The notes beneath the pieces are model-generated. The model saw only the letters and a program-made list of their open reading frames with translations. It searched no databases and was not told the origin of the DNA. From Methanofastidiosum sp. (GTDB lineage: Archaea > Methanobacteriota_B > Thermococci > Methanofastidiosales > Methanofastidiosaceae): 13,027 nucleotides of DNA. Position 1 is the first letter of the stretch, and each line of letters opens with the position of its first letter. Where the stretch lies: contig DUKX01000161.1 of NCBI GenBank assembly GCA_013329085.1, positions 1,515-14,541 of the forward strand. Reading direction: 5' to 3'. Of the stretch, positions 4,643-12,960 are shown in pieces. The position numbers were made by a program, and so were the translations under genes.

Positions 4643-4903
4643 CTATCTAATAAATTTTTTCATTATTAAAGGAAGTCCGACCTTCATAATTCCTTCAATA
4701 GCGGGACAACTTTTTCCAGTTTCTACCTTTTCAATCAGGAAATCATCTATTTGTGATAAAATAACGCCGATCCCAAAAGCGGTAAGAAGGACTGGTACTG
4801 GATGCTTTTCAATGACCCCTAACAGATCTTCCTCAGAACCCATTCTAATCTTTATTTCTTTTAATAATCTTTCAATGTCTTGCCTTTCTATCCTTTCTTC
4901 CAT
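4643..4903 (-). CDS. Small one-helix membrane protein of a YqjDE-like cassette
   Basis: Unrecognised protein of 86 residues. It starts with a charged helix (MEERIERQDIERLLKEIKIR), followed by one hydrophobic segment (about 35-55, PVPVLLTAFGIGVILS) and a second, weaker one near the C-terminus (GIMKVGLPLIM). The layout resembles the HP...GFGxGxxLG membrane anchor of YqjD/DUF883 proteins, with the charged end cytoplasmic. The start at 4903 has GGAGG eight bases upstream; an ATG 15 bases earlier (4918) contains that site and has none of its own. The gene begins inside the end of the preceding holin-like gene (32-base overlap), so the cassette is translationally coupled. Function unknown. Confidence 0.72.
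   Translation of the reverse strand: MEERIERQDIERLLKEIKIRMGSEEDLLGVIEKHPVPVLLTAFGIGVILSQIDDFLIEKVETGKSCPAIEGIMKVGLPLIMKKFIR
4655..4660 (+). terminator. Possible T-run terminator of the paaK operon
   Basis: Six consecutive T residues begin 13 bases after the DUF2148 stop codon, as expected for archaeal U-run termination. They lie inside the final codons of the convergent gene, so the two transcripts would overlap slightly. No hairpin is seen. Confidence 0.3.
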
Positions 4904-5207
4904 AAGTATATCCTCCATATCCTAATATCGCCCCTACAATAACTAGTATCATCCCAACAATCAAAAAGGCCATCATATAGCTACCAAGAACATTTTTCAA
5001 GAAGAATACTAGCGAAATAAAAAGAGCTACCACGCCTGAAAAAGCGAGTATCGCAGAACCAACTGCCAAGAAAAGAGTTTTTGTGAGTCTATTCATGGGC
5101 TCTTTTATTACTTCGCCAATAGCATCAGAGGCGCCCTGCTTTACGTAGGCCCCAATATACTTCACTAGTAATTCAATGAGCTTGTTTAGAGGCACTGTTT
5201 CTATCAT
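4872..5207 (-). CDS. Holin-like (YqjE-type, PF07332-like) membrane protein
   Basis: Protein of 111 residues: an N-terminal amphipathic stretch (about 1-40), two adjacent hydrophobic helices (about 43-69, LFLAVGSAILAFSGVVALF, and 78-100, MMAFLIVGMILVIVGAILGYG), then a basic tail (GRKDRKARH). Size and two-helix hairpin match the Phage_holin_3_6/YqjE group, which despite its name is mostly chromosomal and not lytic. E. coli yqjE sits next to yqjD, and here the upstream neighbour is a YqjD/ElaB-like protein eight bases away. The 3' end overlaps the next gene by 32 bases. Likely an envelope or stress protein; no lysis gene is nearby. The family call comes from architecture and context, so moderate. 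Confidence 0.72.
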   Translation of the reverse strand: MIETVPLNKLIELLVKYIGAYVKQGASDAIGEVIKEPMNRLTKTLFLAVGSAILAFSGVVALFISLVFFLKNVLGSYMMAFLIVGMILVIVGAILGYGGYTYGRKDRKARH

Positions 5208-5215
5208 TGTCCCAC

Positions 5216-5545
5216 TTACTTTCTCATTAGTTTGCCTAGAAGGTATCCAAATCCTAAAGCTGCGAATACGCTCATAATTGGATATTTTCTGATAAATATT
5301 TCTGTTTCCTGGAGGGCTCTTTCAGATTCTTTCACTACATAGTCAACTTCTTCTTTATGTTTCTCTTCAAAATCTTTTAGTTTTATCCCTGCCTCGTCTC
5401 CCAATTCTCTGATCCTTGATTTACTTTCATTGAGCTTGTACTTTCCTTCTTCTAAAAGCCTCTTTCCTTCATCTACCATCTTTTTTCCCATTTCAATATC
5501 TTTTTCTATTTCCTTCTGAATATCTTCAACTTTTACTTCTTTCAA
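5216..5545 (-). CDS. YqjD/ElaB-like (DUF883-type) membrane-anchored coiled coil
   Basis: Protein of 109 residues: a long, highly charged heptad-like helix (about 1-85, rich in K and E) and one C-terminal anchor, RKYPIMSVFAALGFGYLLG (86-104), followed by KLMRK. This is the layout of E. coli YqjD/ElaB, tail-anchored proteins reported to bind ribosomes at the inner membrane in stationary phase. The coiled coil would face the cytoplasm. The start is a TTG at 5543-5545, chosen because GGTGAT, the exact anti-Shine-Dalgarno complement, lies three bases before it and no ATG fits. First gene of a three-gene operon with a TATA-like element about 30 bases upstream. The ribosome role is not shown here; only the architecture is seen. 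Confidence 0.75.
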   Translation of the reverse strand: MKEVKVEDIQKEIEKDIEMGKKMVDEGKRLLEEGKYKLNESKSRIRELGDEAGIKLKDFEEKHKEEVDYVVKESERALQETEIFIRKYPIMSVFAALGFGYLLGKLMRK

Positions 5546-5629: not shown

Positions 5630-6709
5630 TTATAGTCTTATATTTTCATCTTTGGCTATTCCTTTTAGGGCAATAAGCAGTGAAACTAATGCAAGCCCTA
5701 AATAAATGGCCATGTACTTTCCAATTTCCAATAAATCAATAGAAGGGTTAGAGGCTATCTTAATCAAGGGGATAATTGGAGAGTAGCTCAGCGCCTCTTT
5801 TAATATGGGATTCTCTAAAGGTATTGGCACGAACATAATGAGGGTCACAACCATCATAAAAAGGGTAAGGAAAAGGTTTGACTCTGTAATATTTGAGGAA
5901 ATATTTGAAAAGACTATAGAAATTGAAAATAAGAGCAGCATGATTATTGAAAGGAATACCAATAAGAGTGGTATATTGAAAATTGAGATCCCTCTGGCGC
6001 TTAAAACTAGTATCCATATTACTATCTGGACAATTGAGATTGCAAAAGTTGGCAGTATCTTACCAAGGATTATTTCTATTCTTTTTAACGGAGATGCGAG
6101 CAATATTTCAAAGGTCTTTCTTTCCTTTTCCCCAACTATCGAATCAGACAGTATATTCATAGAGAGAAATATCGGGAGAAGCAGTATAAGCGGGATTAAA
6201 AGCGTCTGCATTATCTCAACAAAGAATAGGTCAGCTAGATTATATGTATAGTTTTTAGGATATATGTCGATAATCATCGGATTTAAGACCTCATCAGGGA
6301 GCTCTCCCTTTAATTTTGCCTTTAGATAGGCTCTTTTAATTGGCTCTGATAGATTTTCAAAGTTTAGGGGATTTTTTAGCAGCACCCTGACAGAATTATC
6401 GCCTTGAGCCCAAATAACACCATCGATATTTCTGGGGAGCGCCCCACTAAATTCTGGATTTTCTAAAGCAACGCTTTTTATTGACTCATCATTTAAGTAG
6501 TTAGGAAATCCTTCCACCTCAGAATAAACAAAAAATGTGCCCTGACTGTTTGGGTCATCAACATAAGTCTGTATATAGGCGTAGGATGTTCCAATCAGTA
6601 CTATACCAATTACTATGAACAGTTGTAGCAAAAATGCAAGTATGTAAACCTTTTCCCTCAATATGTCCTTGAACTCCTTTCCTGCAAGATATATTACTTC
6701 TTTTCTCAT
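5630..6709 (-). CDS. ABC-2 transporter permease (NatB-like)
   Basis: Membrane subunit of an ABC exporter, 359 residues. One N-terminal helix (about 22-42) is followed by a soluble extracytoplasmic domain (about 43-160), then five or so helices (166-188, 212-236, 245-268, 277-296, 330-348). The cytoplasmic loop between the first two of these carries the family signature GEKERKTFEILLASPLKR (193-210), the coupling region that contacts the ATPase. Its ATG overlaps the upstream permease stop as ATGA, with GGGGGG just before it. The two permeases presumably form a heterodimer with the ATPase (inference). Substrate unknown; NatAB relatives export sodium or act in envelope or antimicrobial stress. 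It differs from its partner in lacking the C-terminal protease domain. Confidence 0.9.
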   Translation of the reverse strand: MRKEVIYLAGKEFKDILREKVYILAFLLQLFIVIGIVLIGTSYAYIQTYVDDPNSQGTFFVYSEVEGFPNYLNDESIKSVALENPEFSGALPRNIDGVIWAQGDNSVRVLLKNPLNFENLSEPIKRAYLKAKLKGELPDEVLNPMIIDIYPKNYTYNLADLFFVEIMQTLLIPLILLLPIFLSMNILSDSIVGEKERKTFEILLASPLKRIEIILGKILPTFAISIVQIVIWILVLSARGISIFNIPLLLVFLSIIMLLLFSISIVFSNISSNITESNLFLTLFMMVVTLIMFVPIPLENPILKEALSYSPIIPLIKIASNPSIDLLEIGKYMAIYLGLALVSLLIALKGIAKDENIRL

Positions 6710-8460
6710 AGCGCCCCCCTGAGTATGGTAATATTATAGATAAAGTGAATCAGGATACCTGCAAGAAATGCAGGTACCAGATACTTTCTCTCACTAATTC
6801 CTATCCCAATAACTCCCGTTGAAACAATATGTATGCCCCCTGAAAGAAACGTTCTCGTAACAAACACCCTAAGAGCATGATCTGGGAACAGATTAAGTGC
6901 AAAGGCTGTGAAGATAATATCCTCAAGAAGGGCAAATCCAAGGCCAGATGTCATGCCGGCAAGCATCCCTTCATGCCATTTCAAAGGAAAATACTTTTTA
7001 GCTGAGAAAATACCAATGCTTTTTGATAACTCTTCTATAGTTGCCCATATGAACAGTATGGCAAATATCGATTCTGTGAAATAGAGGGCGATAATCCCGA
7101 AGAATATCTCAAAGATTATTGATATAAAAATGGCAATAAATCCAAAAATAAGGGCTATTAAGTAAGGGCTAAAAACTATGTTTTTTAATCTTAGTTTACC
7201 CGCAAATTCAAAGACAAGGTCTTGTATGCTGGGTCTAGGGCCAAAATAAAACTCGTCTTTTTTGTAAAGAACTGTTGACAAATAAATCAGAATAATGGAA
7301 AAGCTAAGGGAAGGCAATATAGAAATGGCCGCTTCTTTCAACGAGTATGTGCCATTTTCAATTGCTATAACAAGAGACAGTGGAGATATAGCTGCGGCCT
7401 CCTTTAGACCTGCAACGTAGAGTGTGGATGTACCGAACAGCAAGAAAAATAGGAGGATAAAAGTTACTGTGACAATTAAGGCTGAATCCTTGTAGTTCTT
7501 TGAATAGACGCCAATTAGTCCAGTTATACTGAGAAGCAGTATTGCCGTTATTGTAAGTGGCAGGATAATTAGAGGATTTGTTACTCTTCCAAAATAGTAG
7601 AGGGCCACCACCCAGAATAAAAGCTGGAACAATATTATCGCTAGGATAGAAATAAATTTTGAATAGAATATTCCTTCTCTTTTCATGGGAAGTGCCAAAA
7701 GCATTTCCCCAGTCCTCCTCTCTTTTTCTGATATAAGTAAGTCAATTAGCATCCCCCCGCTTAAAAACAGGGGCAAAAGAAGAACTAGAAGGACTATATA
7801 TCCCCCCTGCTCATCTTCAAAAGATTTTCTTGTTCTTTCTATCTGTTCCTCGAAATTAGCAGGTCTATCCAGGATGTTTGTTACATTTTCTGTTGTCTGC
7901 TCTTGCGTAGTTTGATTTTGAGAGGGCGTGTTGTTATCCAGAGGGGATTGAGAAACAAGTTCTATATTAGGCTCTACAATTGATAAATCCCTGATTCTGG
8001 CCTCTATAGCTCCATCCCTAAAACCAAGCAGTATTGTGTTTATCTCCGAATAGGCAGAAACGCCCTTTGGGTTCTGATTATTTATGTATACTTCAACTTT
8101 TGAGGATCTATAGCTTCTTATTTTATCTTCAAACTCCTTTTCTATAACTAAAAAGGCTGAAATCCTGCCATTTCTCAATAATTCGAGCCCTTCTTTTTCT
8201 TCCACCCATACAATATCAAATCTTTTATTTTCTGAAATAATGTCTGTCAAGGAGTTCTTTTCTGAGGAGATCCCTATTGGGAGATAACCTTTACCACCTA
8301 TAGAGAGATTGAAGAATCCTCCTTCTTCTAAAGCCTTGACATAGCTACCAAAAAGAGGGATTATAAGAAGGATTACAAGAAGCTGTAAGGTAAAAGCTAT
8401 TTTGAATTTTCTATTTTTAAATAGCCTTCTAAGCTCCCATTTTACCATTTGCTCAATCAT
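6706..8460 (-). CDS. ABC-2 permease fused to PrsW-type intramembrane protease
   Basis: Protein of 584 residues in two parts. Residues 1-400 are a NatB-like ABC-2 permease: helix at 20-40, extracytoplasmic domain 41-218 with an N/Q/T-rich linker (174-195) holding three N-X-T sequons, then helices with the coupling signature SEKERRTGEMLLALPMKR (244-261). A cytoplasmic linker (about 400-430) leads to a second multi-helix domain (432-580) with the PrsW glutamic-protease pattern: EELSK (476-480), GFALLED (508-514, E513), a histidine after an arginine helix (R536, H544), and HFIYN (572-576). These match EExxK, FxxxE, H and HxxxD/N of PrsW, a site-1 protease for anti-sigma factors in Bacillus. EExxK rather than EExxxR argues against CPBP. 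Overlaps the ATPase gene by eight bases and the next permease by four. The fusion implies proteolysis tied to transport; the substrate is unknown. Confidence 0.87.
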   Translation of the reverse strand: MIEQMVKWELRRLFKNRKFKIAFTLQLLVILLIIPLFGSYVKALEEGGFFNLSIGGKGYLPIGISSEKNSLTDIISENKRFDIVWVEEKEGLELLRNGRISAFLVIEKEFEDKIRSYRSSKVEVYINNQNPKGVSAYSEINTILLGFRDGAIEARIRDLSIVEPNIELVSQSPLDNNTPSQNQTTQEQTTENVTNILDRPANFEEQIERTRKSFEDEQGGYIVLLVLLLPLFLSGGMLIDLLISEKERRTGEMLLALPMKREGIFYSKFISILAIILFQLLFWVVALYYFGRVTNPLIILPLTITAILLLSITGLIGVYSKNYKDSALIVTVTFILLFFLLFGTSTLYVAGLKEAAAISPLSLVIAIENGTYSLKEAAISILPSLSFSIILIYLSTVLYKKDEFYFGPRPSIQDLVFEFAGKLRLKNIVFSPYLIALIFGFIAIFISIIFEIFFGIIALYFTESIFAILFIWATIEELSKSIGIFSAKKYFPLKWHEGMLAGMTSGLGFALLEDIIFTAFALNLFPDHALRVFVTRTFLSGGIHIVSTGVIGIGISERKYLVPAFLAGILIHFIYNITILRGAL

Positions 8461-9378: not shown

Positions 9379-9390
9379 CTATTTAAACGT
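9379..9390 (-). promoter_or_regulatory. Candidate TATA box for the ABC operon (leaderless)
   Basis: Minus-strand ACGTTTAAATAG lies about 26-30 bases before the ATPase ATG. Standard archaeal spacing puts the start of transcription at or just before the ATG, which fits the absence of a ribosome-binding site. Confidence 0.4.
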
Positions 9391-9433
9391 CTTTGCTTTT
9401 AATTAAGGAATTCTCAATATTTTTAGTTATAGT

Positions 9434-10739: not shown

Positions 10740-12173
10740 CTACTTCTTCCCTTTTGAGAAGAACTCAATAGCTTCTTCCAATTCTTTGTGATTCTTAGCA
10801 TATTCTTTGATGTCAATTCCTTTTTGATATGCCTCGCATGCTTGGACCAATGATTTTGCCCCTGCTGTTGTTCCTTTAGGATGTGCATGGCAGCCCGCAC
10901 CCATTGTCGTAATAAAATCTATATTTCCCATCACATCAATAAATGGCTTCAGTAAAGTTGGATTTAGACCACCAGAGATAATTGGGCAGCATTTTTTCAT
11001 ACCTCTCCAACTATCATCTTCTAAAATAACATGGTGTGATGTATCCGCTTGAACAAGAGCTATCGCATCTTTATCATTTTCAGGTATTTTTGACCACTCC
11101 TGTTCAAAGAAATGCCCCTTAGCTTTAAACTGTAATATATTAAGTGCTGCAACTACATCTTCTTCTGGACTACCCTGCATTTTTCCAACGCCTGCAGTCC
11201 CCGTGTGAATTCCTGAGGCTCCGGCCAATCTTGCAAATTTGGATAGAACTAATACTGAAAATCCTATTGGATTTTCTAATCTAGTGTAAGCTCCATGGCC
11301 AGCTCTGTGAAAGTGTATAAAGACATCTGGATATTTCCTTCTTAAAGTTTGCACGGCTGTCCACCCAGCCATAATGCCGTCAATTAGGAATGCGTAACTT
11401 CCAGGTTCAAATCCAGTGTTTCTGATAAGTTCACATCTCTCAATCATTGTGTCAAAATCAGCAGCTGAAACATTAAACGAATGAACTTTTTTGTTTCCTG
11501 TTTCCTTAACTGCTTTGTCCATGGCCGCTTTAACGTTTATCACCATCTTGTCATAGGGGCAGAAATCCTGATTTGCTTGAGGCTCATCATTTTTAACGAA
11601 ATCGCCTCCCCCAACCCAGAAATCATAGGCTGCCTCTGCATATTCTGCTGAAGTTAGCCCCATCTTCGGTTTTATTATGGTACCAAGGATAGGTCTATCA
11701 TAGACATTCAGATATTTTCTCATATCGTCTAAAGTATAGCTTGGGCCATCATACTGCTCAAGCATTGCTGGAGGAAACCATACATCAAGCAATTTTAGTG
11801 CGCTTACTTCCTTCATCCCGAGGACATTCCCAACAAGGTATGTCAATATGTTCTGTACGTTTCCACCTCTGTCAAAAAGTCTCCAAGGGTATGCAAGCCA
11901 GACAAGGTTCTTATCCTGATCAATTTGGTAAACTAGAGCGTTCATCTCTTTTGAGAAGGGTGTTTCTGTTTTTACATTGAAATTCGTACCTGTGGAAGAT
12001 TCTGCTGCAACTTCTGCCGCAGCCTGCAGAATGTTTAAACTTCCCCCCGACACTAAATGAAATACGGCAAGGAGGTATTCCCCATTTTTAGGATTAGGCA
12101 GATTAAAATTCACATACCCAAGTTGATGTGGATTTAGTGATTTAATTAATTGTTCTTTGTTTATTTTTTCCAT
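10740..12173 (-). CDS. rbcL: Ribulose-1,5-bisphosphate carboxylase, form II/III
   Basis: Fixes CO2 onto ribulose-1,5-bisphosphate to give two 3-phosphoglycerates. In archaea it usually serves the AMP/nucleoside salvage route or a hexulose-phosphate cycle rather than a Calvin cycle (established for related enzymes). All catalytic elements are present: ESSTGTN (58-64), KPKMGL (168-173), the carbamylation motif GGDFVKNDE (188-197; K194, D196, E197), HFHRAGHG (287-294), GIHTGTAG (321-328), loop-6 GKMQG with K331, and SGG (400-402). An extra segment of about 30 residues between 350 and 390 (GHFFEQEW...EDDSW) matches the assembly domain of the Methanococcoides burtonii II/III enzyme, which the whole 477-residue protein resembles closely. 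It is not a form IV Rubisco-like protein. Encoded alone, with no phosphoribulokinase, AMP phosphorylase or ribose-bisphosphate isomerase in view, and flanked on both sides by toxin-antitoxin-like genes. Confidence 0.97.
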   Translation of the reverse strand: MEKINKEQLIKSLNPHQLGYVNFNLPNPKNGEYLLAVFHLVSGGSLNILQAAAEVAAESSTGTNFNVKTETPFSKEMNALVYQIDQDKNLVWLAYPWRLFDRGGNVQNILTYLVGNVLGMKEVSALKLLDVWFPPAMLEQYDGPSYTLDDMRKYLNVYDRPILGTIIKPKMGLTSAEYAEAAYDFWVGGGDFVKNDEPQANQDFCPYDKMVINVKAAMDKAVKETGNKKVHSFNVSAADFDTMIERCELIRNTGFEPGSYAFLIDGIMAGWTAVQTLRRKYPDVFIHFHRAGHGAYTRLENPIGFSVLVLSKFARLAGASGIHTGTAGVGKMQGSPEEDVVAALNILQFKAKGHFFEQEWSKIPENDKDAIALVQADTSHHVILEDDSWRGMKKCCPIISGGLNPTLLKPFIDVMGNIDFITTMGAGCHAHPKGTTAGAKSLVQACEAYQKGIDIKEYAKNHKELEEAIEFFSKGKK

Positions 12174-12292: not shown

Positions 12293-12676
12293 ATGAGGAG
12301 AGAGATTGAACTTTGGTGGCTTCAAGCAAAAAAGGATTTTTCAGTAGCTGAGATACTTTTTGAAAAGAACCAGTATTACATGGTTGCCTTTTTATGTCAG
12401 CAATCAATTGAGAAGGGATTGAAAGCGCTGCACTTAAAGAAAAACAAAAGACCTGCCGATTTTACTCATTCTTTAGTAACTCTTGGAAATGCGTGCAAGG
12501 TTCCGGATTCTCTTATGTTAATATTAAGGAATTCTACATTAGATTTTATTATGTCAAGGTACCCTGACGCTTCAGACGAACTACCCTATGAAATGTATGA
12601 CAAAATTATAGCATCTCAAAGAATTGATGGTGCAAAAGAGGTTTTGAAATGGATAGAAAAAGAGCTAGAGATATAG
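12293..12676 (+). CDS. HEPN domain protein (PF05168-type), partner of MNT
   Basis: All-helical protein of 127 residues with the HEPN pattern: WWLQAKKDFSVAE (8-20), FLCQQSIEKGLKAL (33-46), THSLVTL (58-64) and SRYPDASDE (88-96). HEPN proteins paired with minimal nucleotidyltransferases form toxin-antitoxin or regulatory systems. In HepT the toxin is an RNase with an RX4-6H motif in the C-terminal half. Here that half has RYPD and no histidine, and the only R-x5-H (R53/H59) falls in the DNA-binding-type HEPN loop. RNase activity is therefore uncertain, and it may be a regulatory member. AGGA eight bases before the ATG sets the start. The 3' end overlaps the MNT gene by 28 bases. Divergent from Rubisco across 119 bases. 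Confidence 0.9.
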   Translation: MRREIELWWLQAKKDFSVAEILFEKNQYYMVAFLCQQSIEKGLKALHLKKNKRPADFTHSLVTLGNACKVPDSLMLILRNSTLDFIMSRYPDASDELPYEMYDKIIASQRIDGAKEVLKWIEKELEI

Positions 12677-12960
12677 AAGATCTCGTAAAATTGATAAAAG
12701 AGGAGTATTCTCCTGAACTAGTACTCCTATTTGGTTCAAGAGCAAGAGGGGACAATCTTATCACAAGTGATTATGACCTTATTATTGTTAGCAATAAATT
12801 TACTGGCGTTCCTTTCTTAACTAGACTATTTTTGATGCAGGATTTGTGGGACGGTGAGAGACATCTAGATGCGTTTTGTTATACGCCTGAAGAATTTGAA
12901 AGAAAAAAACAGCAGATGGGAACTGTCCAGCAGGCTTCAATTGAAGGTATAGCTCTTTGA
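12649..12960 (+). CDS. Minimal nucleotidyltransferase (MNT) of HEPN-MNT pair
   Basis: Protein of 103 residues with a polymerase-beta-like nucleotidyltransferase core: FGSRARGDNLITSDYDLIIV (28-47), giving GS-x10-DxD with metal-binding D41 and D43, and a third acidic residue in HLDAF (D74). MntA antitoxins of this class add AMP to their HEPN toxin to silence it (established for HepT-MntA; inferred here). With all three acidic residues present, it should be catalytically competent. The ATG at 12649 has AGAGG seven bases upstream and lies inside the HEPN gene, so the two are coupled. The HEPN-first gene order is common. A run of six T at 12980-12985 could end the transcript. Confidence 0.9.
   Translation: MDRKRARDIEDLVKLIKEEYSPELVLLFGSRARGDNLITSDYDLIIVSNKFTGVPFLTRLFLMQDLWDGERHLDAFCYTPEEFERKKQQMGTVQQASIEGIAL

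Follow-up and report, generated by a model that had tools for sequence, protein, structure and literature searches.

Does an archaeal membrane transporter carry its own intramembrane protease, and what might such a combination do? This question is raised by a stretch of 13,027 nucleotides from Methanofastidiosum sp. (assembly GCA_013329085.1, contig DUKX01000161.1, positions 1,515 to 14,541 of the forward strand), hereafter the window, in which one permease gene of an ATP-binding cassette (ABC) exporter operon continues into a domain of the PrsW type. In bacterial peptide processing and stress control, PMC7157817 and PMC7478892 describe intramembrane proteases and ABC exporters as interdependent, yet as separate proteins. 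The archaeal fusion makes this protease–exporter partnership physical and offers a single polypeptide for testing the coupling. It matters also because the roles of archaeal intramembrane proteases are little known: PMC9263693 lists a PrsW-like protein of Haloferax with unknown function. We report that the fusion is conserved over two archaeal families and is no assembly accident. At a probability of roughly 45%, it may couple intramembrane cleavage to ABC export or extraction within one polypeptide.

The fused gene is an uninterrupted minus-strand open reading frame (ORF) running from ATG to stop (Table 1). Pfam profiles assigned residues 25–392 of its 584-amino-acid (aa) product to ABC2_membrane_3 (PF12698, E = 3.4e-28) and residues 434–580 to PrsW-protease (PF13367, 57.8 bits against a cut-off of 23.5, E = 1.4e-15), and the isolated protease domain scored 61.9 bits against the latter. 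These matches bear out the preliminary description of the locus, made from the sequence without database searches, which had read an ABC-2 permease and a PrsW-type protease in one gene. That description had also proposed comparing the PrsW and CPBP profiles; PF13367 came out above its cut-off, and the absence of a significant match to either family, which would have told against the idea, did not occur. The CPBP/Rce1 profile (PF02517) had no match in the fused protein at E ≤ 1. A CPBP identity of the C-terminal domain was therefore rejected, because PF02517 is unmatched and the motif is EExxK instead of EExxxR. Sequence searches at E ≤ 1 returned no match among solved structures, and tblastn gave none among plasmid records.

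The motifs named in the preliminary description (EELSK, GFALLE, H544 and HFIYN) lie exactly at the residues cited there, and E476, E477, K480, G506, G508, F509, E513, H544, H572, Y575 and N576 are invariant in all 26 aligned fusions. This alignment (A2) comprised the window protein, 21 of the 35 proteins from the protein search and four loci of the second family; 14 proteins that were near-identical, partial or unfused were omitted. When 21 stand-alone PF13367 matches from the phylum (five of the nine found in the order and 16 of the 20 stretches fetched from the class) were added to 11 fused domains in a second alignment, E476, E477, K480, E513 and H544 were invariant (32/32) and H572 was conserved in at least 90%. 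PMC4602095 describes the PrsW signature as EExxK, a further transmembrane (TM) histidine that CAAX proteases lack, and a closing HxxxD helix; for CAAX proteases it gives HxxxN as the last motif. The motif set of the fused domain is close to this published signature. Its last motif is HxxxN, and N likewise occupies this position in the host's own stand-alone PrsW.

Whether the conserved acids and histidines cluster, as the preliminary description had proposed to check, was addressed indirectly through predicted helices. Secondary-structure prediction places the motif residues mid-helix in four successive helices, and the loops agree by eye with the positive-inside rule, provided that the permease C-terminus is cytoplasmic. 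The AlphaFold2 (AF2) model of the isolated domain reached a predicted local distance difference test score (pLDDT) of 92.4 and a predicted TM-score (pTM) of 0.87; its best structural matches were APH-1-like chains of the PrsW/Rce1 superfamily, with moderate Z-scores, and TMEM147 was among the nearest. For the whole-protein model, the structural matches were mostly ABC permeases. An APH-1 match alone is no proof of PrsW kinship, because ABC-2 type membrane domains are themselves said to have APH-1 topology (PMC6588880). As a separate observation, the fusion may unite two remotely similar membrane bundles, since both halves possibly have the six-helix topology that PMC6588880 attributes to their families.

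The fusion is not confined to the window. A protein search yielded 35 clusters, of which 31 contain both PF13367 and an ABC-2 family within a single protein (four of these being the window's own or 99–100% identical to it), one is partial and three are unfused permeases. Among 61 genomes searched, namely the host's own and 60 relatives, 16 gave matches, several of them restricted to the permease part. A genome survey for the same fusion, as suggested at the outset, thus found it at full length in 10 of the 21 genomes of the order, seven belonging to one genus and three to a second family, to which named records added one further member (L041). One of the seven same-genus fusions (G008) is interrupted by a scaffold gap; a frame break was considered here, because the gene gave two matches with a gap between them, and was rejected, the gap being a run of N. 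Fusion pieces ending at contig edges occur in G005 and G013. No fusion was found in the remaining nine genomes of the order (G006, G009, G011, G012, G014, G015, G017, G019 and G020), although G012 gave a weak permease-only match. Second-family fusions are 36–38% identical to the window's overall. The PF13367 matches listed for open frames longer than 315 aa in 115 genomes of the phylum (nine rows) were all this fusion; the genome-by-genome survey covered this phylum. Fusions elsewhere were sought with the protease region as query, and this search, word-based and of short reach, returned 32 proteins, all within the 35-cluster set. Accidental in-frame joining of neighbouring genes through misassembly or misannotation might have been suspected from the fragmented source genome (1.57 Mb, 247 contigs, ~77% complete), but it is refuted by the recurrence of the fusion across clusters, genomes and families.

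A pre-fusion form of the system was sought in a further family, f4, represented by G012, and rejected: the window permeases had no match at E ≤ 1e-3 beside either of its two related ATPases (on C2, 47% identical over 220 residues; on C26, 39% identical). C26 carries one weak permease match (a 272-aa frame, E = 2e-5) that resembles an ordinary ABC-2 gene. In a third family of the order, CPBP-type domains were seen in long open frames (G014:C127:40787-41341, 801 aa; G011:C35:7220-7729, 753 aa).

Selection was estimated from six species (15 pairs) as the ratio of nonsynonymous to synonymous substitution rates (dN/dS); dS was near saturation, so the values are rough. The protease part gave dN/dS of 0.064–0.123 in 14 of the 15 pairs, the remaining pair being saturated. 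The permease membrane part gave 0.020–0.068 in the 10 pairs with finite values, and the first helix with the extracytoplasmic domain gave 0.054–0.187 where finite. Because of the low ratios in 14 of 15 pairs, the protease domain appears, within this rough measure, to be maintained under purifying selection.

The fused gene lies within an operon, with the ATPase and the protease-free sister permease of the preliminary description on either side (Table 1). An ABC-2 permease and an ABC ATPase thus stand within one operon, as expected of an ABC-2 exporter. The best NCBIfam match of the ATPase is TIGR01188 (266.4 bits, under the cut-off of 312.45), and the sister permease shares 35% identity with the fused one over 143 residues. 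Both families show the full order ATPase, fused permease, plain permease; at two loci it is seen in part, the G010 contig beginning too near the fused gene to reveal an ATPase and the G013 contig carrying just the ATPase and the first part of the fused gene.

Table 1. Features of the fusion operon and its surroundings, in window coordinates.
Feature	Position	Strand	Basis or remark
Fused ABC-2 permease and PrsW-type protease, 584 aa	6706..8460	-	ORF; PF12698 and PF13367; full-length homologues in 10/21 genomes of order
ABC-2 permease part, residues 1-410	7231..8460	-	1 TM helix, extracytoplasmic domain ~60-200, 5 TM helices
Putative PrsW-type protease domain, residues 426-584, five helices	6709..7185	-	PF13367; invariant residues; AF2 model
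E476/E477/K480	~7021-7035	-	EELSK; EExxK motif
E513	6922-6924	-	GFALLE motif
H544	6829-6831	-	Extra TM histidine
H572	6745-6747	-	HFIYN; last-helix motif
N576	6733-6735	-	Last position of HxxxN
ABC ATPase (DrrA-like), 300 aa	8453..9355	-	PF00005, E 2.5e-33; 8-base overlap with fused gene, upstream
Sister ABC-2 permease without protease, 359 aa	5630..6709	-	PF12698, E 1.5e-21; 4-base overlap with fused gene, downstream
Upstream element TTGAGAATTCCTTAAT, 16 bases	9402-9417	-	Before TATA-like box, 5' of ATPase
TATA-like box TTTAAATA	9380-9387	-	By eye, 5' of ATPase
Coiled-coil-like protein, hydrophobic C-terminal stretch, 109 aa	5216..5545	-	Synteny; no Pfam family above cut-off
Holin-X-like small membrane protein, 111 aa	4872..5207	-	PF07332, E 7.3e-10
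Small protein of downstream trio, 91 aa	4643..4918	-	Synteny; no Pfam family above cut-off

These observations allow a tentative mechanism to be outlined. The three genes would make up an ABC-2 exporter, with an apparently intact PrsW-type intramembrane glutamic protease at the C-terminus of its first permease subunit. One transporter would combine the two permeases with a pair of ATPase subunits; with this stoichiometry, each complex would hold one protease domain, placed beside the translocation path. The PrsW domain would cut a protein or peptide embedded in or anchored to the membrane, and the permease, driven by ATP, would extract or export the resulting fragment. Candidate substrates would be remnants of signal peptides, membrane peptides or antimicrobial peptides of foreign origin. 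The logic would be that of the bacterial pairs in which an intramembrane protease (Eep/RasP) works with an ABC exporter (EcsAB/PptAB), joined in one protein. In Staphylococcus aureus, the processing and export of linear peptides require the membrane metalloprotease Eep as well as the ABC transporter EcsAB (PMC7157817), and in Bacillus subtilis EcsAB is termed a regulator of the intramembrane peptidase RasP (PMC7478892). A fuller version, in which the locus would be a self-contained archaeal cut-and-export machine with membrane cleavage tied to the transport cycle, making signal peptides or clearing membrane peptides, and with PrsW gated by ATP hydrolysis, we regard as fairly unlikely.

Conserved small membrane ORFs beside the fusion had been named as a further thing to look for, and here the expectation held in one genus only. 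Three small genes (4643–5545) adjoin the operon downstream in Methanofastidiosum. The Holin-X-like protein, the only one of the trio searched for in whole genomes, is present in 9 of the 21 genomes of the order, all of one genus. In the second family the trio does not adjoin the operon. In G006 (68% complete), the trio directly adjoins the upstream neighbour and the three exporter genes are cleanly absent (L060 7990-8162); elsewhere in that genome there was no match to the fused protein, nor to the ATPase at E 1e-60. The trio genes are thus not obligate partners of the exporter, because they do not adjoin the operon in the second family and are kept without the exporter in G006. They are reminiscent of YqjD-YqjE-YqjK of Escherichia coli and may be related to them, only the middle protein having a Pfam match above the cut-off. 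In the second family the plain permease is instead followed immediately by a 365-aa gene of like orientation (L029 2861-3958, L031 606-1703), whose product we take to be a DUF763 protein.

The 16-base element and the TATA-like box are common to eight aligned Methanofastidiosum genomes, the element with 0–2 differences, and G006, which lacks the operon, also lacks the element. It has a single exact match in the host genome. With up to two mismatches, there were 17 matches in that genome against 26 for the reversed control, hence no excess, and no regulon is claimed; both one-mismatch sites, where the box was inspected, lack a TATA-like box, and fourteen further sites have two mismatches. The element, which lies before a TATA-like box, is a possible regulator site.

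Two further loci of the window lie apart from the operon. A pair of HEPN (PF05168) and nucleotidyltransferase (PF01909) genes at 12293-12960 on the plus strand has a toxin–antitoxin-like arrangement. A gene at 10740-12173 on the minus strand resembles the RuBisCO large subunit, as judged by eye from its sequence; the host is a methanogen-like archaeon.

Several points weigh against coupled cleavage and export. Eep is a metalloprotease and is not known to be a relative of PrsW, and both Eep and RasP belong to family M50; the precedent that they provide is for this reason functional only. APH-1 and TMEM147, the nearest structural matches, are non-proteolytic scaffolds. By dN/dS, the membrane part of the permease evolves more slowly than the protease part, whose identity in the second family is low, at 25–29%. 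The profile matches of that family are correspondingly faint: PF13367 scores reach at most 27 bits, 26.3 bits for an isolated domain; two whole proteins scanned, of four, had no PF13367 match at E ≤ 1; and the G016 domain is too divergent for PF13367 at E 0.001, its motif residues being nonetheless intact. Finally, the neighbours include no candidate substrate or precursor gene that accompanies the operon in both families, since the downstream neighbours differ and G006 keeps the trio alone.

The structural likeness to APH-1 and TMEM147 admits a reading in which the PrsW-like bundle cuts nothing and instead holds or chaperones membrane substrates for the exporter, as APH-1 does in gamma-secretase and TMEM147 at the translocon. 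The hallmark residues of the protease family are, however, invariant in every aligned fusion despite divergence to 36% identity elsewhere, and because these residues are of catalytic type, a dead scaffold is disfavoured and we judge it unlikely. A dedicated role in maturing and exporting a ribosomally synthesised peptide, similar to a bacteriocin or pheromone and encoded elsewhere in the genome, seems more doubtful still. A protease and an ABC-2 exporter are a usual pair in such systems, and the small genes downstream of the operon in Methanofastidiosum would suit it, but their separation from the operon in the second family and their survival in the exporter-less G006 speak against such a role; no precursor-like ORF was noticed beside the operon, though no dedicated precursor search was made.

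Alternatively, the transporter could act as a sensor: it would detect membrane stress or an antimicrobial, and its conformational cycle would activate the PrsW domain to cleave a membrane-bound regulator. In B. subtilis, PrsW cleaves the anti-sigma factor RsiW at site 1, and some bacterial proteins are known to join a PrsW domain to signalling domains (PMC3482391 section 9). Regulated expression is suggested by the conserved element upstream of the TATA-like box, but its near matches in the host genome do not exceed the reversed control. Moreover, no obvious membrane-anchored regulator adjoins the operon in either family, and the sigma/anti-sigma pathway is itself bacterial. We judge this explanation rather unlikely. 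Cleavage coupled to export or extraction remains the reading that we favour.

Compared with known systems, the window permease, which is NatB-like, shares with NatAB-type ABC-2 exporters (PF12698) the permease fold, a large extracytoplasmic domain following the first helix and a DrrA-like ATPase; it differs in bearing an extra protease domain. With PrsW of B. subtilis (PF13367), the fused domain has in common a Pfam match above the cut-off, EExxK, an extra TM histidine and a final HxxxN/D; it differs in being joined to an exporter subunit and in having HxxxN where PMC4602095 gives HxxxD. PrsW also serves as a module in other fusions, archaea included: the partners named in PMC3482391 section 9 are toxin, PilZ, cyclic-nucleotide, FHA, Zn-ribbon, ceratoplatanin and DUF2324 domains, the last in Pyrococcus PH0065, with no ABC permease among them. 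The Eep/RasP and EcsAB/PptAB systems likewise show intramembrane proteolysis working with an ABC exporter, but they are encoded by separate genes, use a metalloprotease rather than a PrsW type and are bacterial, so that the analogy is one of function only.

The closest architectural counterpart is NF041647 (ABC permease/CPBP protease), likewise a single polypeptide in which a NatB-like ABC-2 permease is followed by a protease of the same superfamily. It is the sole NCBIfam match of the fused protein, scoring 40.4 bits where the cut-off is 435, with the best stretch within the permease part; that cut-off was passed in none of the 21 order genomes and none of 14 control genomes. The window protein differs in its protease half, which matches PrsW and not PF02517, and in having EExxK with an extra histidine helix where CPBP proteases have EExxxR. 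A second NF041647 stretch crosses the junction (residues ~223–501, profile 192–495) but is weak (18.1 bits, E 2.6e-4); because it spans the junction, the PrsW-type and CPBP-type ABC fusions may have a remote shared origin. The preliminary description had supposed an archaeal PrsW-type fusion to be little described, and in keeping with this, searches of records and passages in the open-access literature, which leaves out most subscription papers, turned up no description of PrsW joined to an ABC permease. CPBP-type ABC fusions are already known and have their own NCBIfam model; the PrsW-type fusion of Methanofastidiosum and its relatives stands beside them.

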